A stretch of DNA of 64,000 bases from Haliclystus octoradiatus (taxonomy: Eukaryota > Cnidaria > Staurozoa > Stauromedusae > Haliclystidae). Positions 17,235 to 42,974 of this stretch are shown in pieces. The stretch lies in contig OU744450.1 in NCBI GenBank assembly GCA_916610825.1, forward strand, positions 17,724,814 through 17,788,813, in the 5' to 3' direction. The notes beneath the pieces are model-generated. The model had not been told where the DNA came from. It worked only from the letters and a program-made list of their open reading frames with translations, and did not search any database. A program made the translations under genes and the position numbers. The first letter of the stretch is position 1. Every line of letters begins with the position of its first letter.

Positions 17235-18755
17235 GGCTAAGTCATTGTTCAAACAACCTTTGAAATCAAAAGTTACTCTTGAATACACAAGAAATCGCAA
17301 AATTGAAATCCAGATACTCTCATTTGATGCTGTACTTGGCTATAATAAGGATGGTTTACTGATAAAGTTAGGCTGTCAGAATTTCCGGAGCTATATTAAT
17401 TTTATAAAGAGTTATGCATATACCTTTTAGATCATGGTCTGCTATACTATGGACATTTAGCTTCTAGCAAACCATTCCCAAAACATTCACATAACATCAA
17501 TGCGTCTGGGCTTGCCCCAACAAAGGCATTATCTTTAAAACCAATAATCCACATATTCTTACTTTGAAATTCTTTATGTTTGGCACTCACTACATCGTCA
17601 TACTTTTTTATGGCCCCACTTTTCATTTAATATCGTATGCTAGTGCAGGTAGCTGTAAATTAGTTGTATTGCTAGCGACAACAGATTTATTAAGGGATGC
17701 CAACAGAAGCTTTATTATGAAATTTGATCCATGTATCTATTTTTGTCATTACTCTATAAGTAGAATTGGAAGCAGTAATACGCCCAACTCTCTGATCCCT
17801 CTAATCAGAACATTCACTGTGAAGTCTTGTCGAACCACTAAATTAACTTCATCTTATGAAAACATACATGTAGTTGTATAATTATATCATTATAATTATC
17901 ATCAACAGAATGGATAACTTATAAAGTAGAAGGTGGATGACAGGGTAACGCAAATTCTTCATGATCAACACTGATGTCATGTTCATGCTGGTAATCACAG
18001 TTCACATGAAAGTTAACATAAGAGATGAAACATGCTGTCGGTGCACCTGCTGATAGTGTACACATTAAAGATGCTTTAAATAGTATGTAGGTGGTGGTAC
18101 ATTTACTTTTACAAACTCACTCTTTTGCTTTGTATTGAGAGTTGTGCTGCAGATTTCTTACTGTAATTTGGCTTTTTTATACTAACATCTTTGGATCAAC
18201 CCCTTTTTTAGTTTTACCAAAGGTATTCCAATTAAACTAAGCTGACGTAGCTGAATTTTTGAAAAATCCCTTGAATCAGAAATTTTCAACTTTGGAAAGT
18301 AACACACCAACATGATTACATGTAGATCCAAGTCTGAAATATAATAATGTAGATCGATGAATGCAATCTTAATCTGAATAGTTTATGTATGCCATGAGGA
18401 ATAACTGAGGTATTTATCACTTTAATACAAATACGAAAGAATAATTTAGCCTGGTAAAATAGTATGATTATACCATTCTATAAACATTCAGTATGATAGT
18501 TAGACTAAAAACTGAATGTATTAGAGGGTCAGAAACTGTTCAGCTTACACAGAGTGATTCCAATATTTAATTTTATTTCAAATTCAATGGCTATTTTACT
18601 TACCCAATGCAGTATATGCTGAGGCAACTGAGCCAGTCAACTTTTCAGCAGCAACCCAAACATCGTGAGGTACATTGCTTACACTTTTAGAAGGGGTACA
18701 CTTGGCTTTCAAAAAGCAATATCGATAAGATGGAGATATTTCATGGTAAAATACC
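17235..18755 (-). pseudogene. SWIM zinc finger / YqaJ-exonuclease gene, 3' part, broken
   Basis: Minus strand. Exon 18755-18604 reads FYHEISPSYRYC, then FLKAKCTPSKS, then PHDVWVAAEKLTGSV, and ends at a perfect donor (GTAAGT at 18603-18598). This is the region just before and into the SWIM finger in a widespread invertebrate family. Near 18260-18170 a frame gives NWNTFGKTKKGVDPKML, like the linker that follows SWIM. At 17640-17235 a YqaJ nuclease core appears: FVGASPDALMLCECFGNG, LLEAKCP, then after stops HPYYSQVQHQM and CDF. These are the SPDG, ExK and HPYYxQVQ boxes. Several in-frame stops mean it is dead. The left end is cut by the LTR element. The 5' part is at 32689-33255, separated by a 13.9-kb transposon. 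Confidence 0.7.
18747..18755. repeat. Left target-site duplication TAAAATACC
   Basis: Identical to 32689-32697. Lies within the coding frame of the split SWIM/YqaJ exon. Confidence 0.85.
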
Positions 18756-18826
18756 ACAAGTTGCTGCTCGCAGCACATCAACTCCGTCCCAGCCTCCTCA
18801 ATTTCACTGCGTTAGCGCGTTCTCGT

Positions 18827-19091
18827 TGTGGTAGTTTAACATAATTACTGCACCAATAGCAGTTTCAATACATATAATAATATCGATAGTAGTTCTATTT
18901 ACATTCATCTTAACCAATATAATCTACATTGTAAACAGCTAACTTACGTGATCATTCACATATAATCCTATCCGTTCTCTCTGTATAGTTTCCGATATAT
19001 ATTCATAATAAACCATTCCTTCGTTGCTTGTTACTGCAACTACACGTCTCTTCTCTGTCTGAGTATAATCCTTTATTCTCATACTATTACA
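18827..19091 (+). repeat. Gypsy 5' LTR (265 bp)
   Basis: TG...CA direct repeat, paired with 23663-23927. The untranslated leader 19092-19212 follows. Confidence 0.95.
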
Positions 19092-19212
19092 TGGCGCAGT
19101 TGATATTCAAGTTATTACAAGTTTAATAAATATTCCGTCGCGGGTCATCCATTGTTTATCGTTCATTCTTGAGATTTTCGTTTATTTACATCGTCGCTAA
19201 ATACATTTCATA

Positions 19213-22200
19213 ATGCCAAATAGTCCAAGTAAAGCAACACAAAAGTTGAAATCAAAACTCCAAGAAGAAACACGTCTTCGTGAAGCGTTAGAAACAAGAC
19301 TTCGTGCACTAGAAGAGAACAACGACCGCTCACAATCACCAACAAGCCATCACACCGAAGCCGAATCAACAACAACAATAGATAATCAAGCTGATGTGCT
19401 GTCTCTTCTAACAACTGTCTTAAAACAACAGCAAGAACAGCAAAACGCTATCCAAGAATCACAGCAACATGCATTTCAAGAAGCTCTCAATAGCCTTGTC
19501 ACAAATTTACCACAAGGTTCAACAAGACAAGATGGCGACGACCGAACTCCAAGTAGAGGCGCTGCCAAACGCATGGACGTACCGAAGCTGAAATCACCAA
19601 CATCATTAACGTTATCAGCATTTCGTGACTGGACAGAACGTTTTCTTGGATACAGTGAAGCTACAAGGATACGTCACGATTGTAATTTACTTGCTCGAAG
19701 AAGTATTCTTCGCTCCGCCATTGATGAAGATTGGTCGCAATTGTGGACTGGCAGTGTTCTAGACATAAAGGAGACCGACGACATCGATGACATCATACAA
19801 AAGATGGGAGAATACCTCAGACGTCAAAGGAATCCCCTTTTGGACAGAAAGGAATTTCACCTTCGCAGTCAACACACAGGTCAGACCGTTGATCAGTACT
19901 GTGCCGCCCTCAGATTGATCGAAGAGAGCTGTGGGTTTCCCCCTACCGAGGCATGCCCTCATTGTCAACTAGACACCGGATTTTCTCAAATCTACCGGGA
20001 TGACAGAATCAGAGACAGATTAATTTGTGGCATTCAAGATAGTGCCACACAACAAAAGGTTTTGGCAGAATCTTTTACTTCTCTCACCCTCCAGAAGACA
20101 CTAGATATTTGCACAGCTCAAGAGTCTAGCAAAAGCACCCAGAGCAAACTCTCCCAGCCCAAACCTTCCACAGTTCAAGCTGTCAGTTCTGGGAAATCCA
20201 AATCCAAACGTAAACAATCGAGTAAGACTTCACAACCACAACAACAGTCTAACTCCCAGTCTAAGCCAAGTGGGAAATGTAATTTCTGTGGGAAAAACAC
20301 CCATCCCCGCCCTGAATGTCCCGCTAAGGAAGCCCAGTGTTCCTTTTGTGGTTTAGTTGGACATTATCAAGTGGTTTGTCGCAAAAAAGCACAAGCTGCT
20401 GTGCAACAATCAAAGTCACAGAATCATATTTACCTTGGAAATATTGCAATGTCTTCTGAGACTATCTCATTACCAACCACCACTTATCGGAGTACCTCCC
20501 CATTGAATTGGTTACCCGATAGTGGTGCAGCCTGTGATGTTATCAGCCGATTCACTCTAGCCCACCTAGACCCTGATTTAGAACTGAACTTATACCCTCC
20601 TTCAGAAGAATTGTTTACGGCAGACAAGTGCAAATTGCCCGTAATCGGTACATGTCCCATGAAACTATCTCATGGGGACCATAGTTATGCCTGCAATGTC
20701 TATGTAGTCGAGGAGTTGAATGCACCACTCTTAAGTAAACATGGTTGTATAGCCCTTGGAATTCTCCCTCCCAGTTGGCCCCATCATGTCTCAGCCGTTT
20801 CTCTCAGTCCTTCCACTGCCCAGAACACTGTACCAATGGAAGGTCCTGATGTCAACCCTAACCCTTCCTCTGAGATCCCTGATCTTATCAGTGAGTTTCC
20901 TACGGTTTTTAATCTAGACGGACCCCTCTCCCCTATGTCTGGTCCTCCAATGTCTATTGAATTGGAGCCAAATGCCATCCCTGTCAAGAGGTACAAGGCC
21001 TACACCGTCCCCTTCCACTGGCAAGAGTCAGTCCAAACCCAGTTATCCTCAATGGTCAGCAAAGGTGTCATTGAGAAGGTTCCCCTCGGAGAGTCCCCTT
21101 CATGGATCCACCCCATGGTCGTCGTCCCTAAGAAGAATTCCAACGAACCTAGAATAACTGTCGATTTGACTGCCCTGAACCGTTTTGTCAAACGTCCCGG
21201 GTACCCAGCAAAGGTCCCACGAGAGGAAATTTCACAAATACCTCCTGGTATGAAATATTTCACTACCCTAGATGCCCGCCATGGGTACTGGCAAGTTGCC
21301 CTCTCCCCAGAAAGCCGGCACTTGACTACCTTTATTACTCCTTGGGGTTGTTATCGTTTTTTACGCAATGTTATGGGTTTGAGTAGTGCAGGCGATGAAC
21401 ACAACCGACGTGGTGACGAAGCTCTGGCTGGCATCACCAACCTTCGCAAAATTGTTGAAGACGTTGTCATCTACGACCGTGATCTGGCAACCCATCTGGC
21501 ACGTGTCCGTGAAGTTCTAACCCGCTGTTCAGCACATGGCATCACACTCAATCCAAAGAAGATGTTCCTGGCCCAACCTTCTGTCTCTTGGTGTGGCTAT
21601 CAACTGTCCTCATCTGGCTACACTGTCACTCCAAACCTGGTAGACGCACTTCAAAAGTTTCCTGTTCCTGGCACTCGCAGTGACTTGCGTTCGTTCTGTG
21701 GCCTGGTACAACAGTTTGAGACGTTCACTCCAGATATAGCTGAGATCTCACAACCACTAAGAGCACTCTTGAGCACAAAGCAGAATTTTGTCTGGGAAGG
21801 TGCACATCAACAAGCCTTTGAGAAACTCATCTCTGTCCTGACAAGTCCACGTATCCTGTGTGCATTTGATCATCAGGCACATCTACGCCTTGAAACAGAT
21901 GCTGCTCAGTCAAAAGGACTTGGGTATGCTCTTTGGTGTGAACAACCTAATGGCTCTTGGAAACTTCTCCAATGTGGGTCTCGATACGTCACTGACGCTG
22001 AAAGTCGTTACTCTGCGACTGAAATTGAACTTTGTGCTGTGGTCTGGGCTGTCCAAAAATGTCATCTGTTCCTCCGTGGTACAACCTTTGAATTAGTGGT
22101 CGATCACAAACCGTTAATTTCTATCATCAACGCTAAGACACTCAGTGACATCCCAAGCAATCGTCTGATTCGTCTAAAAGAAAAGTTATCAAGCTACCAA

Positions 22201-23637
22201 CTCACTGCTGTTTGGCGTGCGGGAATCAAGCACACCGTAGTCGATGTATTTTCTCGCTTTCCGGTATCACCAGCTGATCCTGAAGATGATATCAAACAAC
22301 ATCAATCATCAAATTTCTCAGCCATCGCATCCATTACCTCATCCTCTGTTGAAGATGCTCATCTGACTCGCCTCCGTACTGAAGCCAAAGTGGATCAAGT
22401 GTACCTCAAGCTTCACTCTCAATTAAGGTGTGGCTTTCCTTCGGACAAGTCCAACCTAGATGACAGCCTCCATCCATATTGATCTGTTCGACATGATCTT
22501 TCACTTCTGGATGATGACATTGTACTATTCAAAGATCGTCTGGTGATCCCAATCGCACTACGTCCTGGCATCCTTGCTGACCTTCATGCAGCTCACCTGG
22601 GGCGCGACCGCACCCTTGCTCATGCCCGTCAATGTGTTTTCTGGCCTGGCATTACCAACGATGTTGTTACTTTGGTCCGTGAATGTTCAGCTTGTGCAGA
22701 ACGGTTACCTTCATTGGGTAAAGAGCCACTACTACAAGATTTACCTCCATCACGTCCTGGTGAGTGTATTTCTGCTGACTTGTTCCAACATTCTGGTATT
22801 GACTTCCTAGTTATTACTGATAAGTATAGTGGTTGGCCAATGGTTGTGAATTGTGGTCGTGGTACCGACACAGATGACGTCATCCAAGTGTTCTTGGCCT
22901 GGCTATGCACAATGGGTGTACCTGTCCGTCTCACATCTGATGGTGGTCCTCAATTTAGCAGTCATAAATTCAAGTCATTTTGTCAAGAGTGGGGGATCCA
23001 TCACGATCCATCCTCTCCTTATCACCATATTGCCAACGGTCACGCAGAAGCCGCTGTCAAGGCAATGAAGTCTATTGTGATCAAGACGACCACCAACGGC
23101 AAGCTTCATACCTCTGAATTTTATAATGCATTACTGGAGTATCGCAACACTCCACGCAATGATGGCTTGAGCCCTGCTCAACGTTTGTTTGGTAAGCCTG
23201 TGCGCACTCGATTACCAATCAATCCAGCTAAATTCACTGTGGACATAAAAGCTCTACTTGAAGAAGCAGATAAAAAATCACTCACTTTGAAGGCAAAAGC
23301 AAAGCGTCAGTACGATCTCCACTCTCGCAACCTTTGTCCTCTGGCTCAGGGTGATGTTGTTCGGATTCAAGATCCAATCTCTCATCGTTGGGACAAAATC
23401 GCTGAAGTCATTTCAATCAATGATAGACACCGTAGCTATTGTGTTAAATCAGAAAGTGGTCGGGTGTATTGGCGAAACCGTCGTTTCCTTCGTCATTATT
23501 ATGGTCCTGCATCAACCTCATCCCCAGATGATGTCACATCTCAACCAGATCCAGATGTCGATCAATCAGATTCAGATGTAGACCAACCAAGACGCAGCAC
23601 TCGAATCACCCACCCACCTAAGCGCCTTGACTTATGA
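19213..23637 (+). CDS. Gypsy gag-pol polyprotein, one in-frame TGA
   Basis: Single frame of 1474 codons interrupted only by TGA at 22480-22482; the frame is the same before and after it. Gag has a coiled, Gln-rich N-terminus and two CCHC knuckles (CNFCGKNTHPRPEC near residue 356 and CSFCGLVGHYQVVC near 376). Protease: DSGA near residue 436. RT: LDARHGYWQVAL, RNVMGLSSAGDE, and IVEDVVIYD at 747, where the usual (V/Y)xDD reads VED. RNase H: LETDAAQ (D896), SATEIEL, VVDHKPL. Integrase after the stop: HHCC finger (HLGRDRTLAHAR, CSAC), then the DDE triad in ISADLFQ, TSDGGPQF and NGHAEAAV. The tail is acidic with PPKRLDL. The stop context (PY-stop-SVRHDL) suggests a TGG to TGA change. Confidence 0.93.
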
Positions 23638-23650
23638 ATCACAAGCGCTC

Positions 23651-23662
23651 CAAAGGGGGGCA
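23651..23662 (+). promoter_or_regulatory. Gypsy polypurine tract
   Basis: CAAAGGGGGGCA immediately before the 3' LTR; the primer for plus-strand DNA synthesis in this class. Confidence 0.8.
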
Positions 23663-23927
23663 TGTGGTAGTTTAACATAATTACTGCACCAATAGCAGTT
23701 TCAATACATATAATAATATCGATAGTAGTTCTATTTACATTCATCTTAACCAATATAATCTACATTGTAAACAGCTAACTTACGTGATCATTCACATATA
23801 ATCCTATCCGTTCTCTCTGTATAGTTTCCGATATATATTCATAATAAACCATTCCTTCGTTGCTTGTTACTGCAACTACACGTCTCTTCTCTGTCTGAGT
23901 ATAATACTTTATTCTCATACTATTACA
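23663..23927 (+). repeat. Gypsy 3' LTR (265 bp)
   Basis: Identical to the 5' LTR except for one base at 23906. Confidence 0.95.
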
Positions 23928-24005
23928 CTCGTGACTTTACGTTCTTTCTTTCTCAAACTGACAATTCACGCAACTACATCCATCACGTTCAACTACATTC
24001 GCGTT

Positions 24006-26581
24006 ATGGGTTGTAGGGAGAAGGAACCAAAGGAACGGGTTGTAAGATATGGATTGGACATTGGTAGACATGATGTTTTGGTGGTAGTTCCTGATATAAA
24101 AATGTACTTGATCCTTTTTGGTATTGGTCGTCACTTTCTAATTTAATTCAACAAAGAGTGACTAGGCCTACACATTGTTATTATTTACTTTGTTAGTTAA
24201 CGGTTATGTCTTTGAAATTGAAGTAGATTAATTAGCTATGGAAGTTGCATATTACGATAACCATCAGACCATCATAGCAAATATATTGACATGGAGGTGA
24301 GCATTAATGTTTGTAAAAGACAATGTCGTTGATAACCCTTGATAATGTATGAGTGTGTCTGTACACTTCAGTTGGGAAAAGGCAGTGTTCTTAGAACAGT
24401 AGAAATTATAATGCAAATGGACTAAATAGTATACAGTCCATGGTAATTATAAGTATATAATGGACTTTCTTGGCTAGAGCGATGGCTGAAAGTGAACATC
24501 AGTTGCTTTTTTCTTAATAGTAGCCTACTATTATTGGAATTCGTGGGGCACTAACCCTTGATGCTGCATGACAGTATGAATGTTTCTGTTATGGTTGGGT
24601 ATGACCATATAAGGCTGTACGCTTAGAATAGCGTTTCTGATAATTTAAATGTGTTTTTTCTATCCGATTGTTGTATATGAATGAGTGTACGAAGTTAATG
24701 TATAGCTGCAGCAAAACATTTATATCAAGACATTATTCCTAGATACTGGGCAAATGAACACTAGCAAGGTGGTTACTATATAGAATCTTATCATTCAGAA
24801 TTAAACCTTGATGCCGTTAGGAGGGCCTAGACCAGATGTTATGCAAGCCGAACACCAGTCTGCCTTACTCAGTATCCAATGAGAAAGTGTAAAATTGGAG
24901 GAGGGGACATAAGCTAGTGTCCTCCCTGTGATGATCACTGTGAACTACTCAACAAAGACCAAAATAACTCCTATAGCCCCAGCCATGTCATGGATAAAGC
25001 TATGTGGGAGGATATCACCGCTCACCAATATGTCATATCTGACACATAATTCTAAAGTAGCAAATTGAGCAAATGTAAAACAATTTAATCGTCCACCAAC
25101 TCAAAAGTAGGAACCTGATATTGAGTCCAGGTGATTACCAAACGTCTAGGATATGAACACCTCAAATAATGACCACCTGTCTACAGTAACCAATACTAGT
25201 ACTCCAAAGGCAATATATAATTAATTAACACATCAATACTAAATCATAAACAGAATCGAATCCTAATGTTCAGAACAGTGAATGACAACGAATGAAGCAA
25301 ACTTCGAAACAGACATTATATCAAGATAATAATTAAAAATTAATATACAAATATGATGGATTAACAATATAAATATGTAACATCACACAGAACAGTAGTG
25401 GAGTGGCACAAACAACCAATTAAATCTACACCGAAGGACGTAGCTGGAGCTAGACAAATTGAGATCATCAACTGACTTCTCTATAACCAAGTAAAGACCC
25501 TAGAACATAAATCAGAACTTAATAAATCAGCAATAATAACATCCAGAAAACAACCAGAAAATCAGTAGGCGCACTCAAGCACCAATATAAAGAACGAGAC
25601 AGGAGTAGGGGAGCGGTAATATTGTAGTGGCTGCGTAAGACGTGTTATGGTAATCATGTAAATTGTCAAATGTTTATTTCTATTATATCAGCTTGATAAC
25701 TGGCATAATATCCAAGACCTCATAACGGCATGAAGGTATAATTCTAAATAATGACATTCATTAGGTACAATCAAGCCTGGTATAAATATATATATGTATA
25801 TATATTGTTTCTACTTATTCTATTTATTCACTCTCAACATTCTATTGGGACAACATGTTGCAAATTTCAATTCAAAATTTTCAGGAGGTCAAATGTGTAT
25901 CATCCAGATGTCACTATGGTGTATTCTAGATCATTATGTGGCTATGTGTGCCATTACTTGGGTAAATTAGTTTATGATATGTAACTATTGATTATATATA
26001 AGATTATTGACTTTATAATATTTGCTGGTTGTATTTGATCATTATTAACTGGAGTGTGTCATGTTTCAAAATACATCAGTTGGTACAAACTACCAGTCAA
26101 TTAATATATTTTTTGTTCATATTTGACATAAAGATGAACATCTACATCATTTGTATTTGAATGATATTTATGTAATTTTGTAAATGAAATTCCACAGTTC
26201 TTTGTTGCCCTTCGGTAAATGCACATAATTTTAAAAAAATTGTGTTGTTGTTTTATTTCCCAATATTTTTCAGGGGCCGGCTGACTGGCCTTGAACACAG
26301 GCCGCAAGCGGAAGGCTTGTCAACTATAATCAAGCATTCACAATTTGTTATCAGAGTCAACAAGGCTACGATATAATGAAGTGAACATGGCTTTACACTG
26401 TTTACAGCCCCGATCAGTCTCAGAAATAATCATTCCTTTTCTGAAACAACCAATAGCCTACAATAACAATAGCCTACGTTCACAAAGGCCCAGTATTCTG
26501 CTACTCTACATTCTGGGCCTTGTAAAATGTTGGCGAATGAATTGATGCGCTAGCTAACGTTTTATCATCTATTTTGTAAAC
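24006..26581. other. Interior of the 13.9-kb transposon, no gene recognised
   Basis: AT-rich, without a convincing coding region. About 24516-24575 is a partial copy of the foldback MITE found at 29044 (shared TAGCCTACTATTATTGGAAT and ACCCTTGATGCTGCATGA). Around 25440-25620 a degraded frame with basic, Gln-rich character could be an old element but is not assignable. Confidence 0.45.
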
Positions 26582-26589
26582 ATAATACA

Positions 26590-27778
26590 CATAGGCGTAG
26601 GGGCACATTTCCAACCAGGGGGGGCAAAAATGGTTTTGCCCGAAAAAATTTTTCCGGGAAATGTTGTTATAAGAGGTAACTCACATGCAAAATTGCAGAA
26701 GATTTATCGCAGGATACAAACACAGACATCACAGGCCTCCTTCAGCCCCACAAATTTCTTAATACCGTCATTAAATATTGAAACATATTCATTTTACATT
26801 CATTTTAAGCAATTATATGATTATATAATTTTTTACTGAATTCAAAAAGCCGTTATCAGCTATTCCATTCCTCCTGCAACTTAGCTTTACGGTGTAAATA
26901 ATAACGTTCATTTCTCCCTGTAGTGGATCGTTATAAAGAACGTTTTAGTCACACCTGGCTCGTCATATAGGCCATCCTATTTTAGGTATTTACTTTTATT
27001 TCCTGAGAATGTTTAGCCACCTTAGAGCAGAATATTTTGCTGCATATAGCAGTGTATTTTAGGCACCGTAAAATACACTTTCATATGCAGCACTGGGTTA
27101 TGTATTTAATTTGAAAGAGCGAGACAAGCCTATTTTATGGCAAATAGTGATCTGCTTCACTAATCCCTATATGATCTGATGCGAAGAATTGTTGCGAGCA
27201 GAGCGAGCAAGAAAATTTGGATTATTGTTTACTGATATTTTTCAGGACAACGTTACGTATAACCTGCGAAATATTGAATGACTGAATAATTTCATTTGCA
27301 AAGAGATATAAGAAATAGCTTGATCTGCCCGAAAATTGACCTAAAAATTGCCACTTACACATTTGGGTCAATGTAACATTTCTCATGTCATCACGGTCTT
27401 AATCTTTTTAGACGTTAATATATAAAGCGTGTAGATAAGTTCTGGATTTTTTATATTGCAAAACGAGTGGGGGTGGAGTCTTCAAAATAATTAAGCGATA
27501 TAGCAACCATAATTATTGCATAAAATTATGAATATTAGATTGGAACATGATAAGAAGATAGCTTGCCGGTAGGCTCACAATGCATAGTATACTCCTGTTC
27601 ATAAAACTGTTTTTGTGAAGTGTTGAATTTTATTAATACACAATAAATTTCCTGAACACTTTCACTGTACCGCAAAAGACTTGTAATTTGTTGATTTGCC
27701 CAAAAAATTGCCCGAATTTTTTTCTCAAATGCGTTTGGGGGGCAAATGCCCCCCTGCCCCCCAGCTCCTACGCCTATG
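26590..27778. mobile_element. Non-autonomous hAT-type transposon (1189 bp)
   Basis: The ends are inverted: CATAGGCGTAGGGGC at 26590 and its near-perfect complement ending CTCCTACGCCTATG at 27778 (12 bp perfect). G-rich and C-rich tracts with GGGGGGCAAA lie just inside both ends. Outside both ends is the same 8 bp, ATAATACA (26582-26589 and 27779-27786). An 8-bp duplication with a CA..GGCG-type terminus is diagnostic for hAT. There is no transposase ORF. Confidence 0.88.
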
Positions 27779-28039
27779 ATAATACAATAGACCACTTGAG
27801 AAAAACAGGTGTAATCTACATGTGAAACGATGTACCCTGTATTGTGTGAATCATTTTTAACGCCTTTTCAATTCACAAAGACGTCACAAATTATTTACGA
27901 GTTAGAAAATAGACCAATCACTGCCTAAGGTTGCATATACCTTGGTCATTCTGTTTTTTTTTGTAGTGAGCGCTTCACATCATTCGCTAAAAAGTTACAT
28001 GTCAATAATAACAACAATAATGGCTACAGAACTCCATTT

Positions 28040-29043
28040 CATACAATGCAGTGACTCTCAGTATCATGGAGCGGAACACGGGATAAAGGTTCTTGTCTAA
28101 CAACAGAGGTCCAAACAACACCAACTACCATAATAATTGTCTTAATTGTCGCAGCTCCAAGTCAAACCAAGGTCGCAACAACATCAATCACCAAAGCACA
28201 ACATAAACTTATTTTCCAACCTGCCGACAAAGGGGAGCATTGGTTGTAATTACACGTGAAAAATACATAGAAAAGATCCAGGCACATCTACATCTTACCA
28301 CAGCCTATCACCATGACATCCCCTCGGCTCTACCTAGAATGAAAATACTTTACTTGTTACCAAAAATACACAAACCTGGCGCATAACGTCTTTGGTTGCA
28401 ATTCTTTAACGGACAACTTATCCTCCTTTATTGAAATGACACTACAACCACTTCGCCATCTTATCACAGGATCAAAATAATCCTGTGTAAAAATTATTTC
28501 ACTTTCAACAAACAGTACTACGTACAACAATCTGGAACTGCTATGGGGACTAAATTTGCCCCTAGTATCGCTGACATATACATGACATGGCTGAACTGGA
28601 GACAATACTCTTTCAACAATCCACATGGAAGCCTATAAAATTGCTTCTTTACCTTGGCTTGATGGTGTTTCCTTATTTGGCCAGTGGCCACCTCCGAGGT
28701 CCGTCTTAACGAATTTATTTCAAAGGCAAACTCAACACATAAACATTAAAATTCACCTCAACTGGATCTCAAACATACATATCACCTTCCTTGTTCTCAA
28801 TGTCTACAAAATCAGACCCGAAACTGATATATACATAAAACTAACAGATACTCATAATTTATTGCATTTCATTTCACATCCTATCACCCCACCAGAACGA
28901 AATGGGCAATTCTCAAGTCATGTACGATCAGGTACATCAGAAGTATCACAAATACTGATATCCTTATGTTACATATATACATCCTCTATCTGAGTATTTG
29001 CTCGAAATCTTATCCACCCAAACGGACCTTCCAGATTATCGTC
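28040..29043 (+). pseudogene. Penelope-clade retroelement RT fragment, degenerate
   Basis: Broken frames give ADKG, VVITREKYIEKIQAHL, LLPKIHKPG, GTAMGTKFAPSIADIYM and, at 28625-28993, ITFLVLNVYK...DIYIKLTDTHNLLHF. These are the hallmark RT blocks of canonical Penelope elements in the right order. The catalytic YLDD region reads as LDG/stop, so it is inactive. It belongs to a different Penelope lineage from the 38-43 kb locus, whose RT blocks are distinct. Confidence 0.75.
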
Positions 29044-29222
29044 TGTTTGTTTCCTAAATAGTAACTATTACTGGAATGTTATTCCCGCTAACAGCACTAC
29101 AGCTTTAGCTTATAACGTCCCTTGTGGGAAGGAACACTAGCCCTTGATGCTATATGAATGTGCACTGTGAGCGGAACAAACATTCCAATAATAGTTAGCC
29201 TACTATTTAGGTAACAAACAAT
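29044..29222. mobile_element. Palindromic foldback MITE (about 180 bp)
   Basis: The left arm, TTTCCTAAATAGTAACTATT then ACTGGAATGTT, is inverted at the right as AACATTCCAATAATAGTTAG then CCTACTATTTAGGTAAC. The centre has CTAGCCCTTGATGC. Related copies are at 29725-29845 and about 24516-24575. Confidence 0.65.
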
Positions 29223-29224
29223 AT

Positions 29225-29724
29225 CTACCAAAATCCCAATCCAACACCTCCAGCTACTACAAATACTATATGAACTTCAACCAGTTCAGCAAATCTATAA
29301 AATACACCGTAACTCCCACCAAAAGCTCCTATCTAACACCTCTCAAAGCAAATACTATTTGGACCATCAACTAGCAAAGAAAATTCATGAAATACAGAAG
29401 ACCACACTGACCATAATCCCGAGTATCCAGGGACTAACTACCATAGTCGTCCAATTTGGGCCGTTAAAGTTCAAGATAGTTTTTAAATAGAAAACATGAT
29501 GATATACTTATGATATATGATATATTATATGATATACTATCCCTCTACCCTAATAATCCATGCTCACCAAGGATGCCCCAGACAAAAAATTTCTATCTGA
29601 TTTCCTCCAATTATTTACACCAAGTCCATTTATATTCATAATTATTATGTATGTTATGTGTACCACTTTAATTATTGGTCAGTCATTGGTCAGCCAACAT
29701 CCGCCTTTTTCCAACACATGACAC
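29225..29724. other. Spacer between foldback MITE copies
   Basis: No coding sequence recognised. Contains a run of GATATAT-type palindromes at about 29505-29540. Confidence 0.4.
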
Positions 29725-29845
29725 ATTCATTCAGCATCAAGGACTAGTGCCCTTTCCCATGAGGGACGCTGAAAGGTGAAACTGTAGTACTGTTAGCAGT
29801 GACGAACATTCCAATAATAGTTACTATTTAGGAAACAAACAAACA
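29725..29845. mobile_element. Foldback MITE, half copy in opposite orientation
   Basis: About 115 bp inverted relative to 29046-29165 (CATCAAGGACTAGTGCC ... AACATTCCAATAATAG ... TTACTATTTAGGAAACAAA), ending in (AAAC)n. No clear target duplication. Confidence 0.6.
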
Positions 29846-30950
29846 AACAACAAAATAAGAAATAAAAACACAAACACAAACAAATATAATAATCTCAAAA
29901 TACTCTACCACAGTAATAATGGGATTGCAATATCTCTAATTAGACGTCTACTCTAATTAATGGACACTGAGCACTTACTACTAACACACTATGCCACACG
30001 GACACTATGCTTCTCCTGTTAATGAAGTGAAAGCTCCAGCTATTTTATATTTACTTTTTACTTATCTACTTATATATATAGATTAACTTAAATAAAACAT
30101 ACTCATTGCAATCTACGGCCAACACACACACACACACGCCAACTCACAAATATAATCACAGTATCACAAAAAATGTACCTCGCCTGTGGCGTTCCACAGG
30201 GATCAATCTTGGGATGATTGCTTTTCGTTATCTATATTAACAATATGCCAGATGTAATGCAAAACTCTCTGTCCTGGCAATACGCATATGACACACAACT
30301 CCTGTACAGTTACAACCCAAAACATCCTCTGCCCAGAAACAGAGCCAGCGATAAAATCAACTCTGATCTGAAAAATATAAGCGAATGGTGTAAGGATAAC
30401 TCTCTGTGCCTTAATACTAAAAAATGAAAGCATTATGTATCGGTCACAAGAGAGTTTTGGTAAAGAACAATCCTCCAGACATCGTATAGGCCTACTGAAT
30501 GACGAGCGTATATCATACGTACCAACTGCAAAATATTTAGGGGTAGCTCTCGATCAAGAACATTCTTACAAAGCACAGCACACATTATGCAAGTGATAAT
30601 AACAGCAAAATTAATTACAGTAATCGAGTCAATGATAATTCAGCTCTCTATGGGCTTCCAGTTTAGGGCTCTTCCTGTCCAACCTTGTTACAGAAATTTC
30701 AGCGGTATGTGATAAATAATGCAGGAAAAGTCATTTCGGGAAAACCAAAGTTTTCGCAAATGGGAAACAATCTTCAACAACTAGGTTGGCTCAATATTAA
30801 TCAATAACATGAGATGCAAAAACAATTTTAGCCAGAGAACCGATCCCCCAAGCTCGCCATAACTACAACACCAGACAACAAGGCCAATCTCATTTACCAG
30901 CTCCGTCCACCGATCGAAGCAAGAGACGTTTCATGTTCAGCGGTGCTAAG

Positions 30951-31403
30951 AAGTGATGTTTTATGAAAAAATATAGTGGGGGAGCGGCTCGCAATTCTCA
31001 AAGGGCCCAAAGGCCCCTTCTTGAAGAGGGTCTGGGGGCATGTCCCCGGAAATATTTTCAAAATTATAATCCTTCAAGAGCTCTGTAGTGCATTTCAAGA
31101 GCGGACTAATTCAGTATAATCTATTGGGTCATTTAATTATTTCCTTGCTAAAATATGAAGTTATCATCTTGAAAATGGGCCAAATGGCTAGAGATATTTA
31201 ATAGCCGAAACGCAGTTCAGATAAATAATAAAATCGAGAAACTGCTGCCACTGATGTTTGCTTTGAAAATAATACTTCTATTACTGATAATATTGATGGT
31301 AATATTATTCGGAACAAGAACATATAAAACTTCACTTCAAATGAAAAAAGTGAAGTAGTTGGGGGACGACGTTCCTCCGCGTTCCCCCACCAAAACATCA
31401 CTT
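30951..31403. mobile_element. 453-bp MITE with 8-bp target duplication
   Basis: Perfect 12-bp inverted ends AAGTGATGTTTT / AAAACATCACTT, with GTGGGGGA further in on both sides. GTGCTAAG flanks both ends (30943-30950 and 31404-31411). There is no ORF of its own. An 8-bp duplication points to hAT, though the ends do not start with CA. Confidence 0.8.
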
Positions 31404-31720
31404 GTGCTAAGTCGTTACAAAATATGCAGCATACACAAAATTACCAAAACATCAATTCAAGAACACGGTCATCAAACAATTATTATTGGAAGAAAACCGA
31501 TCCTAAACAGTTTTAGTAAACGCAAAAATATCGAAATTTAAAATAAATTGCAATTCTTGAAAGATAGTAAATAAAACATTCTAACAAACAATTTATTTAA
31601 CCTGTAAATATTCGATAGACATCAAGAAGTGATAGTGACAATCTCACAATGTAAAACAAGTTTTGTAATCACTAATTTCGAACCCTCATATATGTACACT
31701 TAAATGTCTTTAATAAACTG

Positions 31721-31745
31721 TATTCTATTCTATTCTATTCTATTC
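31721..31745. repeat. (TATTC)n LINE tail
   Basis: Five tandem pentamers directly after an AATAAACTG-type end. Confidence 0.8.
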
Positions 31746-32540
31746 AATTGCATTGACTGAGGCTTTCCATAGGGGTGGTACCTTACCCTTTGTCTCTTTT
31801 TAACAGGGGTTCTCCCCTGTGAGGCTAAAGGGATCTACCAATCCCTTATTGTTTGATAAATAACTAGTTACATCGACACAACAAGCATTCCAAACAGGCA
31901 GTCAAACACCATTTGCAAACTTAAATTGGTGAAATAAATATTATAACTGTAGGCCTATATTATCTGATATACCGGCATGATGGAATGACTATACAGAATT
32001 ACTGACATTTGAAAGAGAGATTATTAATGTAAATATAATAACAGGAATAAAATTCACAGTCAGATATCATTTAAACCACCTTTTAATGTCGATAGATTAG
32101 ATTGGATCTGTTCTGAATTGCAAGGTAGGCCTATGCATTAGATGAGCAGAGGTATAGTATAGCCTACTAGCCCAACCAGGAAGTGTTCGATTGAGATGAA
32201 GTTAATCTCACCAAAAAGAACAACAATCTGTAAGATGTATCGCAAAGTTTGATAATATTAACTCTTCGCTGTAATGCAATTTAAAAATTGAAATGTCAGA
32301 CTCAAGAAGGAGGGACACTTTGTAGCCTAAGTAAAGCCTACTTACCTAGATCTATATTATGCCACGTTGATAACTGGTACTGGTAGCATGCGAATGATAG
32401 AAGATAGCCAAACACATTCTTCAAGTTTAACTTAATGCGAGTTTTTGTGTTTGAGATGATTCTATGAATCCACACATGATCCACACGATGCCATAATCTT
32501 CCCAATAGAGAAATCACACACATGAACCAGCATGCTTCAC
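31746..32540. other. Interior of the 13.9-kb transposon near its right TIR
   Basis: No coding region recognised; AT-rich with TAGGCCTA-type short motifs. Confidence 0.4.
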
Positions 32541-32560
32541 ACGAATGATGGCTGTGGTTG

Positions 32561-32688
32561 ACGTGATGGATGTAGTTACGTGAATTGTCAGTTTGAGAAA
32601 GAAAAGAACGTAAAGTCACGAGAACGCGCTAACGCAGTGAAATTGAGGAGGTTGGGACGGAGTTGATGTGCTGCGAGCAGCAACTTGT
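32561..32688. repeat. Right TIR of the 13.9-kb transposon (gypsy-free)
   Basis: Reverse complement of 18756-18826 joined to 23933-23987. It contains ACGAG once where the left TIR has the gypsy element with CTCGT duplicated. Weak similarity extends to about 32541. The outside duplication is TAAAATACC at 32689-32697. Confidence 0.88.
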
Positions 32689-33255
32689 TAAAATACCTCC
32701 TTCAGCCATTTACAATCAAAGTAACTGAATACTTTATGTTTTGAACTGTACAAATTTATTACATCAAATTATTAGATTTTAACCTTAAATTAAGAACTAT
32801 ATAAAAAGACTCAGAGAATACATTACATCACAAACTAAATTTAGATAGATTTAATTCAAAATATTATAGCATACATTGAGATGACCTTAGCAATATGAAA
32901 ACAATAGCAGTTTATCGTAAAATAATTTGTAAACAAATTACTGTCATAATATCATGCAGCTTTATTAATTTCATTGTATTTGTCTTTATTTAGTGAATTA
33001 TATTAAATTAGCAATCCAGTCGACATTCAACGGCGTCTTAAGTTTATCATCTACGCATCCGCAACACTTTAAATTCCTTGTGATCTCTCAGCATTCTTTA
33101 CCAAGCATTGCAGAAGACTTCTGCTCTTCAGAAAGGAGGAACTCCTCAATATTGGCAAAAATAAATGGTGGCCAAGACTTCATTCCAGCTTCCTCAGTTA
33201 CCCAAAACTGACAATTAATGTCCACTACCTGGTCTGGGAGCTTCTTTCCATCTAC
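32689..33255 (-). pseudogene. SWIM/YqaJ gene, 5' part, separated from its 3' part
   Basis: Minus strand. The upstream exon, about 33255-33096, reads KKLPDQVVDIN, FWVTEEAGMKSWPPFIF and ANIEEFLLSEEQ, matching from memory the N-terminal region (LPDP..., WPP...I..FLL) of invertebrate SWIM/YqaJ proteins. The next exon begins after a TTTGTACAG acceptor at about 32745 and reads SKHKVFSYFDCKWLKEV. It then runs straight into FYHEIS at 18755 once the 13.9-kb transposon and one TAAAATACC are removed (family pattern KAYSYFxxGWLKEVFYHEI). The exon 1 donor and splice phase are not settled, and a TGA occurs if the frame is read on. Confidence 0.6.
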
Positions 33256-34254: not shown

Positions 34255-37866
<3,612 letters not shown>

Positions 37867-37891
37867 GAGTCAAAGACTACGCATTCATTTT

Positions 37892-37932
37892 CTGTAACTT
37901 AAAGTTTCTCGCTTTATGCGATCATCAGACAG
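37892..37932 (-). ncRNA. Hammerhead ribozyme, Penelope-like copy A 3' end
   Basis: Minus strand, 41 nt. CUGU, then core CUGAUGA, stem II UCGC/GCGA with loop AUAAA, GAAA, 3-bp stem III ACU/AGU with UUA loop, cleavage GUU, and ACAG closing stem I. All core residues are canonical. Confidence 0.88.
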
Positions 37933-38105: not shown

Positions 38106-40247
38106 CTACGTTTTTGTTTCTTTGAAATTAGATAAATAATATTTATTTTCATGCCTACATTTTGATATGAGTTCAGATTTTTTATTTAATATGGCTTCTT
38201 TTGAGCAGATGATGTGGAATTTTTCCACTAAACATAGGTGACACTTTTTTGACATATTATTATAGGGTCTGCCGGTTGCCAGAGATGACCATTTAATCGT
38301 GTAGTCTATGTCTTTGTTTTTGAGATCCCATATATACTTTGACAATTGCGTACTTGATGATAAGTTGCTGTGTTTGAAGGTCGATATGTGCTGCGTATAA
38401 CGTGTTTCAAATGTTCCTTCCGTGAGGCCGATGTAGTTTTTTCCTTCTGGATTGTTCGGTGTTGAGACGTTGGCGTTGTAAATTAGACTTTTTGATTGGC
38501 ATTTATTATCAAATGGGCATTTTTCTTTATTTCGACAGTTACATAAAGCGGCGTTTGTGGCATTGTTTTCATTGCTGTTAGTAATCTTTTTGTTATGGTT
38601 CTTGATTATCGTGTCCATGTTGCTAGTGCAGCTATAACTTACCTTGACGCAGTTAAAGTTGAATATTTTGTTAAATCTGTGGGATTTTGGGAAATGTTTT
38701 TTGATTAGTTTTAAAAATGTTCGCCCAACATTTGTTTTTACGCTTTTGTTGTACGGCGGGTTGAACCAAATAGTTTTCCGGCTTCTCCTTCTTTTGTTGT
38801 TGTTTGACTGTGAAGGGCGTGGCTTGAATGACAAGTTGGTCTGGTGTCCGCTTGCCTTCAAAGCGTCTTCGTAGATAACTTTAGATTTTTCGAAAATTGA
38901 ATTGTTAGTTGATAGGTCGGAGATGCGTTGGTTGATTGCGATTGGAATTTGTTTTAGTATTACAGGTGGATGATTAGATTTCGTATTAATGTAGAGAGGC
39001 TGGTCGTTCGGTTTTCTGTACGGTTGGTAAGAGTTATTAGTTAAATTGAAAGTTAGGTCCAGGTAGTCGACCGTCTTCAGATTGGTCTTTGTTGTAATTT
39101 TAAGGCCAACATCTTTGAACAATTTTGTTAACTTTTTTCGAATTTTTTCAGCCTGTGGGCCTGACTTGTTTTTGAGGACAGCTAGACCGTCATCTCGATA
39201 AAGTCCTACTTCGTTAGCGCCATATATTTCTTTTAACTTTTCTAAAATGAATAGCCCGACCAATTCACAAACCTCCGCACCGTCGTGGCTGCCCATCGTT
39301 ACGTCGAATAGATTTTCGTTGCCTCTTTTTGTCCACGCCGATCCTGAGCTGAATAGCACTGACTTCCTTGCATGCATGATTATTTTTGTGTCGCTTTCCG
39401 AGATCGATGTTAAATTTTTAGCAAAATTAATGGCTTGAGTTAGTAGATTCTTCGATATTGTTGGATAAAAGTTCTCTATGTCAAACACCATAAATGTTAA
39501 TCTGTGTTTATTTTCCAAAGATTTGAACCAATCTATGACAGATGACGTATTTCTCCATTGGTTTACTTTTGTCTTTTCTTTGACACTAAGGATAATTTTT
39601 TCTAAGATCTTTTTACTAACAATGCCCATTTCGCTCTTTGCCGGATTGATTAATCGGCATGTAGGATTCTGTCGAAAATTATCTTTGTGATCTTTTATTG
39701 TGATGAAAGCTTCTTGTTGGGCTATAATGTCGGTTCTATTTTCAATTTTTAATTCTTTTGCGATATCTCTCGCCTCTCTGTTGATCTTGTTTACTGTGTT
39801 CTTATTTGCCTTCTTGTATGTAGCAGTTACGTTGTCGTGTAGTAGCTTTTCATGTTGTTCTGTGTCGACCTCGTAGAAGTTTCTGGTTTTATCTGCCGGT
39901 ATAAATGCTTTCGATGATGTCTTGATTTTGGCGATGTCTTTCTTTAACTGGCGTTGGAAGTGGTCGTTCACGTACCTAAATTGGATATTTCGTGTCATTT
40001 TCATTAAATCAGCTTCAAAACCTTCTAGCTCCGTAATTTGTGATGGGCAATTTCTTGATTTGAAACCAAAATTTTCTTTCGCTGGGCTGTCGTCTTTTTC
40101 GTTTGTTTCATTCTCCTGGAAGAAAAATGCCTTCCATCGCATCCTTTTGATAACGCTTTCTATTTTTGCAATTAGTTGAATTAGATATGTTTTTCTGGGT
40201 GGTACTGGTATATTTTTCATTGAATAGTTGAATGTTGTTTGTTCCAT
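38106..40247 (-). CDS. Penelope-like RT plus C-terminal GIY-YIG endonuclease (713 aa), intact
   Basis: Retroelement protein that copies its RNA at nicked DNA. Full frame from ATG at 40247 without stops. Conserved blocks: AFITIKDHKDNF, then PTCRLINPAKSE near residues 185-205; VFDIENFYPT near 256 (RT motif A Asp); MGSHDGAEVCE (motif B); GLYRDDGLAV near 350 (motif C, YRDD). Then comes a basic linker (NNNKRRRSRK). A Cys-rich hinge, CNCRNKEKCPFDNKC, leads into the GIY-YIG nuclease: LIYNA, NYIGLTEG near 602, ETRYTQH with the catalytic Arg, and CLVEKFHI with the Glu. The EN is C-terminal as in canonical Penelope elements. The closely related copy B has a stop. Possibly a still-active element. Confidence 0.9.
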   Translation of the reverse strand: MEQTTFNYSMKNIPVPPRKTYLIQLIAKIESVIKRMRWKAFFFQENETNEKDDSPAKENFGFKSRNCPSQITELEGFEADLMKMTRNIQFRYVNDHFQRQLKKDIAKIKTSSKAFIPADKTRNFYEVDTEQHEKLLHDNVTATYKKANKNTVNKINREARDIAKELKIENRTDIIAQQEAFITIKDHKDNFRQNPTCRLINPAKSEMGIVSKKILEKIILSVKEKTKVNQWRNTSSVIDWFKSLENKHRLTFMVFDIENFYPTISKNLLTQAINFAKNLTSISESDTKIIMHARKSVLFSSGSAWTKRGNENLFDVTMGSHDGAEVCELVGLFILEKLKEIYGANEVGLYRDDGLAVLKNKSGPQAEKIRKKLTKLFKDVGLKITTKTNLKTVDYLDLTFNLTNNSYQPYRKPNDQPLYINTKSNHPPVILKQIPIAINQRISDLSTNNSIFEKSKVIYEDALKASGHQTNLSFKPRPSQSNNNKRRRSRKTIWFNPPYNKSVKTNVGRTFLKLIKKHFPKSHRFNKIFNFNCVKVSYSCTSNMDTIIKNHNKKITNSNENNATNAALCNCRNKEKCPFDNKCQSKSLIYNANVSTPNNPEGKNYIGLTEGTFETRYTQHISTFKHSNLSSSTQLSKYIWDLKNKDIDYTIKWSSLATGRPYNNMSKKCHLCLVEKFHIICSKEAILNKKSELISKCRHENKYYLSNFKETKT

Positions 40248-40386
40248 GGTTTTTGCAATGAGATTATAGTGCTCTACTGCAAGCAGGAGCGTTAATATAA
40301 TGTAATAATAATAATGATGATATGGTATCTAACAGCAGTTGATATAGTACTCGATGTCATTTGACAGAGCGTGAATAATAATAATA

Positions 40387-40960
40387 ATGGAGTCAAAGAC
40401 TACGCATTCATTTTCTGTAACTTAAAGTTTCTCGCTTTATGCGATCATCAGACAGATACTATTAATGAAAAATATATACCAGTTACTCTTATTTGACAAT
40501 AGTGAGAAAAAAATTGAAAAAAGAGAAAAACTATTGTTATACTTACAATGGTTTTATCTTTACAATTACTAAGTTATATTGATATGTATTGTTATTAGTT
40601 TCCTTAATTAAATGGCGCTGTTATAAGGCTACGTTTTTGTTTCTTTGAAATTAGATAAATAATATTTATTTTCATGCCTACATTTTGATATGAGTTCAGA
40701 TTTTTTATTTAATATGGCTTCTTTTGAGCAGATGATGTGGAATTTTTCCACTAAACATAGGTGACACTTTTTTGACATATTATTATAGGGTCTGCCGGTT
40801 GCCAGAGATGACCATTTAATCGTGTAGTCTATGTCTTTGTTTTTGAGATCCCATATATACTTTGACAATTGCGTACTTGATGATAAGTTGCTGTGTTTGA
40901 AGGTCGATATGTGCTGCGTATAACGTGTTTTAAATGTTCCTTCCGTGAGGCCGATGTAGT
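40387..40960 (-). mobile_element. Penelope-like 3' segment (pseudo-LTR) inverted relative to copy B
   Basis: 574 bp nearly identical to 37864-38438. It covers the end of the GIY-YIG coding part and the 3' untranslated part with a hammerhead. The switch to plus-strand element sequence is at 40960 with about 1 bp overlap. It shares with copy B, and not with copy A, an AAA (Lys) in place of GAA (Glu) in the ETRYTQH region. Confidence 0.88.
40415..40455 (-). ncRNA. Hammerhead ribozyme, inverted 3' segment
   Basis: Identical in sequence to the one at 37892-37932. It lies upstream of the copy A leader, so transcripts of copy A started further upstream could be cut on both sides of the ORF. Confidence 0.88.
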
Positions 40961-40961
40961 C

Positions 40962-42974
40962 CAGGAGAATGAAACAAACGAAAAAGACGACAGCCCAGCG
41001 AAAGAAAATTTTGGTTTCAAATCAAGAAATTGTCCATCACAAATTACGGAGCTAGAAGGTTTTGAAGCTGATTTAATGAAAATGACACGAAATATCCAAT
41101 TTAGGTACGTGAACGACCACTTCCAACGCCAGTTAAAGAAAGACATCGCCAAAATCAAGACATCATCGAAAGCATTTATACCGGCAGATAAAACCAGAAA
41201 CTTCTACGAGGTCGACACAGAACAACATGAAAAGCTACTACACGACAACGTAACTGCTACATACAAGAAGGCAAATAAGAACACAGTAAACAAGATCAAC
41301 AGAGAGGCGAGAGATATCGCAAAAGAATTAAAAATTGAAAATAGAACCGACATTATAGCCCAACAAGAAGCTTTCATCACAATAAAAGATCACAAAGATA
41401 ATTTTCGACAGAATCCTACATGCCGATTAATCAATCCGGCAAAGAGCGAAATGGGCATTGTTAGTAAAAAGATCTTAGAAAAAATTATCCTTAGTGTCAA
41501 AGAAAAGACAAAAGTAAACCAATGGAGAAATACGTCATCTGTCATAGATTGGTTCAAATCTTTGGAAAATAAACACAGATTAACATTTATGGTGTTTGAC
41601 ATAGAGAACTTTTATCCAACAATATCGAAGAATCTACTAACTCAAGCCATTAATTTTGCTAAAAATTTAACATCGATCTCGGAAAGCGACACAAAAATAA
41701 TCATGCATGCAAGGAAGTCAGTGCTATTCAGCTCAGGATCGGCGTGGACAAAAAGAGGCAACGAAAATCTATTCGACGTAACGATGGGCAGCCACGACGG
41801 TGCGGAGGTTTGTGAATTGGTCGGGCTATTCATTTTAGAAAAGTTAAAAGAAATATATGGCGCTAACGAAGTAGGACTTTATCGAGATGACGGTCTAGCT
41901 GTCCTCAAAAACAAGTCAGGCCCACAGGCTGAAAAAATTCGAAAAAAGTTAACAAAATTGTTCAAAGATGTTGGCCTTAAAATTACAACAAAGACCAATC
42001 TGAAGACGGTCGACTACCTGGACCTAACTTTCAATTTAACTAATAACTCTTACCAACCGTACAGAAAACCGAACGACCAGCCTCTCTACATTAATACGAA
42101 ATCTAATCATCCACCTGTAATACTAAAACAAATTCCAATCGCAATCAACCAACGCATCTCCGACCTATCAACTAACAATTCAATTTTCGAAAAATCTAAA
42201 GTTATCTACGAAGACGCTTTGAAGGCAAGCGGACACCAGACCAACTTGTCATTCAAGCCACGCCCTTCACAGTCAAACAACAACAAAAGAAGGAGAAGCC
42301 GGGAAACTATTTGATTCAACCCGCCGTACAACAAAAGCGTAAAAACAAATGTTGGGCGAACATTTTTAAAACTAATCAAAAAACATTTCCCAAAATCCCA
42401 CAGATTTAACAAAATATTCAACTTTAACTGCGTCAAGGTAAGTTATAGCTGCACTAGCAACATGGACACGATAATCAAGAACCATAACAAAAAGATTACT
42501 AACAGCAATGAAAACAATGCCACAAACGCCGCTTTATGTAACTGTCGAAATAAAGAAAAATGCCCATTTGATAATAAATGCCAATCAAAAAGTCTAATTT
42601 ACAATGCCAACGTCTCAACACCGAACAATCCAGAAGGAAAAAACTACATCGGCCTCACGGAAGGAACATTTAAAACACGTTATACGCAGCACATATCGAC
42701 CTTCAAACACAGCAACTTATCATCAAGTACGCAATTGTCAAAGTATATATGGGATCTCAAAAACAAAGACATAGACTACACGATTAAATGGTCATCTCTG
42801 GCAACCGGCAGACCCTATAATAATATGTCAAAAAAGTGTCACCTATGTTTAGTGGAAAAATTCCACATCATCTGCTCAAAAGAAGCCATATTAAATAAAA
42901 AATCTGAACTCATATCAAAATGTAGGCATGAAAACAAATATTATTTATCTAATTTCAAAGAAACAAAAACGTAG
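40962..42974 (+). pseudogene. Penelope-like RT/GIY-YIG ORF, copy B, one nonsense codon
   Basis: Same protein as 38106-40247 but lacking about 43 N-terminal residues and the start codon. At 42312-42314 a TGA replaces the TGG (Trp) of copy A, right after the basic linker. The frame then continues without further change through the Cys hinge and the GIY-YIG domain to TAG at 42974. Other differences from copy A are few (Lys to Glu beside the stop, Glu to Lys in the GIY-YIG domain). The RT and EN halves would thus be separate if translated. Confidence 0.88.

Follow-up and report, generated by a model that had tools for sequence, protein, structure and literature searches.

A probable Mutator-like DNA transposon, itself invaded by a Gypsy-type retrotransposon, splits an exon of a YqaJ-domain gene in Haliclystus octoradiatus

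Transposons of the Mutator-like (MULE) superfamily are described as generating target-site duplications of 8-11 bp and as commonly having long terminal inverted repeats (TIRs), in PMC6446971. Two described groups come closest to the element reported here. Tm1, a Mutator/Foldback (Phantom-type) transposon of root-knot nematodes, makes mostly 9-bp duplications and has MITE-like relatives, according to PMC3169594. Rehavkus, a Repbase group from arthropods and annelids, has a 9-bp duplication and TIRs of 26-400 bp, according to a table in PMC6446971.

We analyzed a 64,000-nucleotide stretch of the H. octoradiatus genome (C6:17724814-17788813; hereafter the window) and searched 262 Mb of this genome in 33 contigs. 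The element found in the window resembles MULEs generally, as those sources present them, in its long TIRs (136 bp) and 9-bp duplications, but differs in that the defining transposase is linked to no copy found. Like Tm1, the family has 9-bp duplications and carries similar ends on both MITE-like and longer noncoding members. However, Tm1 as described there includes a member coding for a MULE transposase, and its TIRs consist of ~14-bp tandem repeats; we see neither in the family studied here. The likeness to Rehavkus lies in the 9-bp duplication and in TIR length (136 bp versus 26-400 bp), whereas the description gives Rehavkus a PHD-finger transposase, a domain not detected in six-frame Pfam scans of the window copy, and a minisatellite before its 3' TIR, compared with only a 2.2-copy, 18-nt repeat near the right TIR here.

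A perfect 9-bp duplication, TAAAATACC, flanks the element on the left (18747-18755) and on the right (32689-32697), and the element with its duplications occupies window positions 18747-32697. The TIRs are 136 bp long and 96.4% identical once a retrotransposon nested in the left one is set aside. The right TIR lies at 32553-32688 (minus strand), and the left TIR (plus strand) comprises an outer 71 nt (18756-18826), the final 5 nt of which are the left CTCGT of the nested retrotransposon, and an inner part that resumes beyond it (23933-23997). The outer 71 nt match 32618-32688 at 70 of 71 positions, compared with a best ungapped match of 36/71 among 2000 random pairs from the window. Random 9-mer pairs from the window agreed at 9/9 in 11 of 200,000 draws and at 8/9 or better in 55 of 200,000. 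An earlier note on this DNA had proposed a TIR transposon with a perfect 9-bp duplication, which these data bear out. Its TIR length of about 127 bp was close to the 136 bp found, but an insertion after 71 nt divides the left TIR into two pieces. Its single 13.9-kb element does not hold up: about 5.1 kb is the nested Gypsy-type retrotransposon, net of which the DNA transposon measures ~8.8 kb, and the rest has internal repeats of its own, among them a reverse-transcriptase relic.

The nested element is a 5.1-kb Gypsy-type LTR retrotransposon on the plus strand (18827-23927), inserted inside the left TIR. Its LTRs (18827-19091 and 23663-23927) are identical at 264 of 265 positions, and its 5-bp duplication, CTCGT, lies at 18822-18826 and 23928-23932. 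One plus-strand open frame (19213-22482) carries RVT_1 and RT_RNaseH domains and another (22543-23637) carries integrase domains. With TG...CA ends on its LTRs, a 5-bp duplication, and reverse transcriptase, RNase H, and integrase in that order, it is an ordinary Ty3/Gypsy-like element and not a component of the DNA transposon. It is young and was inserted later than the DNA transposon. Among named proteins, those most similar to it are two fragments from Caligus rogercresseyi, with 40-42% identity; higher-scoring matches are unnamed. The left TIR of another copy (C7:20656014-20659685) is also interrupted, in this case by a fragment of 669 nt, LINE-like on visual inspection (L022:3583-4251; C7:20656082-20656750), that is associated with an 11-nt duplication, TAGCGCGTTCT. 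The fragment lies within ~10 nt of the position of the window retrotransposon in the TIR, and these two independent insertions at one spot may be a coincidence.

The DNA transposon interrupts an exon of 179 nt in a minus-strand gene with a YqaJ domain. The 5' part of the exon, which includes one copy of the duplication, begins at an AG acceptor (32689-32724), and the 3' part runs up to a GTAAGT donor (18604-18746); both splice signals were read by eye. On the same strand, the YqaJ domain (PF09588, E = 2e-07; 17303-17536) follows ~1.1 kb downstream. When the flanks are joined with a single duplication copy, the minus-strand frame is continuous. A 60-residue query from the exon matched the genome 15 times, at this locus and at 14 others, indicating that the interrupted gene is one of a repeated family. 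Ten of the 14 homologues span at least residues 1-56 of the 60 unbroken, with 48-72% identity, and the insertion point, at residues 10-12, lies inside their aligned span; the remaining 4 are shorter. Stops are present in 7 of the 14, and in-frame stops in 4 of the 10 long ones. Judged from sequence, these paralogues display the insertion-free form of the exon. The split exon and restored frame previously claimed for this locus are supported both by the join and by the 10 homologues unbroken at this point. The gene had also been called SWIM/YqaJ-like; the YqaJ assignment stands, but Pfam gave no SWIM match in the frames that were scanned. Because YqaJ exonucleases are also present in ISL2EU transposons, as stated in PMC9179366, the interrupted "gene" may have originated from a mobile element.

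Between its TIRs, the DNA transposon (23998-32552) contains stretches common to the copies at C10:6464777, C8:5749323, and C7:20656014, mostly with 84-98% identity, indicating that much of the interior is older than the spread of these copies. Pfam found no transposase in the six stop-masked frames of 23930-32553. The only result there was a weak reverse-transcriptase relic on the plus strand (RVT_1, 30164-30439; E = 1.6e-06), which at 28.4 bits falls slightly under the curated cutoff of 29.6. One internal segment (24783-25759) lies between 42-nt inverted repeats with 83% identity, and a foldback (29041-29844) has 123-nt inverted repeats at 29041-29162 and 29722-29844, also with 83% identity. 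Positions 24832-25600 show ~74% identity to an abundant dispersed repeat, many copies of which score equally. In four pairs of copies of this dispersed repeat, both members have the same orientation and the spacing is 8390-8392 nt, a pattern compatible with the LTRs of a large element. A Penelope-like origin for the 28.2- to 29.0-kb region, suspected by eye, was dropped when the best tblastn match reached only E = 0.093.

We next turn to copies elsewhere in the genome. Searching with the 129-nt right end listed 16 matches at 10 places, the window copy among them. Five copies have two complete ends, and in all five the 9-bp duplication is either perfect (9/9) or differs at a single position (8/9). 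Besides the window copy, these are C7:20656014-20659685 (duplication CCTGGGGAA, 9/9), C4:32168754-32169986 (8/9), C8:16136586-16137002 (8/9), and C8:12513762-12514212 (8/9 given one extra base at the left end, a one-base shift); the right ends of both C8 copies were extrapolated 2 nt past the BLAST match. In the three short copies (C4:32168754, C8:16136586, and C8:12513762) the TIRs are ~61-79 bp long. Four other copies (C10:6464777, C8:5749323, C1:15716581, and C10:12678841) show just one end, with 18-19 kb inward of it examined; of these, C8:5749323 retains inner parts of the other end without its terminus. The copy at C7:4743389-4744834 has the inner TIR on both sides and is missing the outer 22-24 nt. 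Across 16 aligned ends, two of them from a related set, the terminal bases are conserved. Viral contigs contained no match to the exact 19-nt end.

A pattern search for the TIR with mismatches listed a related end, ACAAGTTGCTAATCACAGC, at 7 places; its similarity to the family is confined to roughly the outer 25-30 nt. With 3 mismatches allowed, the pattern gave 27 matches versus 7 for a reversed control, so some of these matches are due to chance. One place, L055 (C2:5728435), is a 101-bp hairpin relative that has a partner end and a duplication (AGAATAAGT/AGAATAAGC, 8/9). Six of the 7 places were examined. At L054, L056, L057, and L058, no partner end with a duplication was found within ~300 bp; an 8/9 duplication match at L056 was dropped as it came without a TIR end. 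A DNA search with the 868 nt of L053 revealed no inverted counterpart elsewhere on its contig. The tRNA-like look of some short relatives was not borne out, as L032, L033, L054, and the window gave no Rfam match that attained the gathering score of its family. The earlier note had held that TIR copies occurring singly, or without 9-bp duplications, would count against a transposon; four copies are indeed one-ended and another lacks both outer ends, but the duplications in all five two-ended copies and in the 101-bp relative make the outcome mainly favorable to the claim.

Given this anatomy, the window element is probably a non-autonomous cut-and-paste DNA transposon of MULE type. The MULE type is favored because 9-bp duplications, seen in 5/5 two-ended copies and the 101-bp relative, and long TIRs, which are typical of the superfamily but not obligatory, fit it. 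No PF10551 transposase was found in the copies scanned or linked to these TIRs, so the assignment draws on the lengths of the duplication and the TIRs. The genome does contain MULE transposases, in line with this reading: there are at least 85 matches to PF10551. All those listed are, however, more than 16 kb from each of the 34 TIR-like ends that we compared by script; the nearest listed is 16.6 kb away, from the related end at C4:30703363 to 30719945. TIR DNA searches, TIR patterns with mismatches, and searches for the MULE and P-type families linked no autonomous partner to the family, and the transposase-bearing member that the earlier note advised looking for was not encountered among the matches listed.

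The lack of a linked MULE enzyme leaves some room for another superfamily with duplications of ~9 bp, such as Merlin or an aberrant P-type, which we consider unlikely. Merlin duplications are 8-9 bp and those of the P element are 8 bp. The genome is rich in P-type RNase H domains (at least 135 matches), but no listed match is within 76 kb of any of the 34 ends, the nearest being ~76 kb away, and the two-ended copies (5/5) and the 101-bp relative give 9 bp rather than 8. The Merlin-type domain (PF12762, which we take to be the IS1595-type DDE transposase of Merlin) is absent from six-frame Pfam scans of the window copy. These scans revealed no transposase of any recognizable kind in that copy, as the earlier note had said.

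We also scanned parts of the six copies other than the window copy and the three short ones, with C1 covered on the minus strand and C7:4743389 on the plus strand. The only transposase domains were on C1, where DDE_1, HTH_Tnp_Tc5, and BrkDBD form a set that is presumably Tigger/pogo-like and that we read as a putative nested element. Other matches in these copies are not transposases: ABC_trans_N (E = 0.17) and DUF4516 (E = 0.77) are weak, and HEPN_DZIP3 (E = 5.5e-07) and SBSPON_C (E = 0.00058) on C1 are located in repeat arrays. Apart from the putatively nested set, then, the scanned copies offer no candidate enzyme, and for this reason one could picture an orphan family whose TIRs, ending in ACAAGTTGCT..CAGCAC and generating 9-bp duplications, are mobilized by an enzyme belonging to none of the known superfamilies. 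We find this improbable, as the anatomy is not unusual and non-autonomous families with a decayed or lost partner are common. An origin of the inverted repeats in local inverted duplication or chance, with no transposition, would accommodate the four one-ended copies but is scarcely credible given the perfect 9-bp duplication, the restored exon frame, the insertion-free paralogues, and the presence on a different contig of another two-ended copy with a perfect duplication.

If the element is of MULE type, as we favor, a DDE transposase encoded elsewhere would bind the conserved end, ACAAGTTGCTNNTCNCAGCAC, excise the element, and join it to a staggered 9-bp cut in the target, and gap filling after joining would produce the 9-bp duplication. 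The enzyme would be supplied in trans, with the ends alone required in cis; this would account for sizes from 101 bp (the relative with the related end) to ~8.8 kb and for interiors that gather other repeats. In this locus, the element landed in the exon of the YqaJ gene, and the Gypsy-type retrotransposon entered the left TIR afterwards. The window DNA transposon is apparently unable to move by itself, and the ends common to elements from 101 bp to ~8.8 kb define a small non-autonomous family.

This small family, apparently new, is of a known kind of element, and it leaves general knowledge of transposition unaltered. No account of it was met in passages of PMC6446971 and PMC3169594, which is not proof that none exists; the suggestion that the family is undescribed is plausible. 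The locus provides a clear case of nested transposition, in which a young LTR retrotransposon lies within a DNA transposon that in turn lies within an exon, with insertion-free exon paralogues as references.

Several further observations concern neighboring or related DNA. Two 868-nt stretches with the related end, at C4:30686563 and C4:30703363, are 100% identical, 16.8 kb apart, and in the same orientation; from their sequence, they would represent a recent duplication or recent copies. Outside the transposon, window positions 38109-40328 hold a 740-amino-acid open frame in which Pfam found no domain, and a near-identical inverted second copy is present at 40887-42971; by eye, both frames appear Penelope-like. 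A long trinucleotide array occupies window positions 37284-37899, reading as poly-Leu, poly-Asn, or poly-Ile, and similar arrays are found at the C1 locus.
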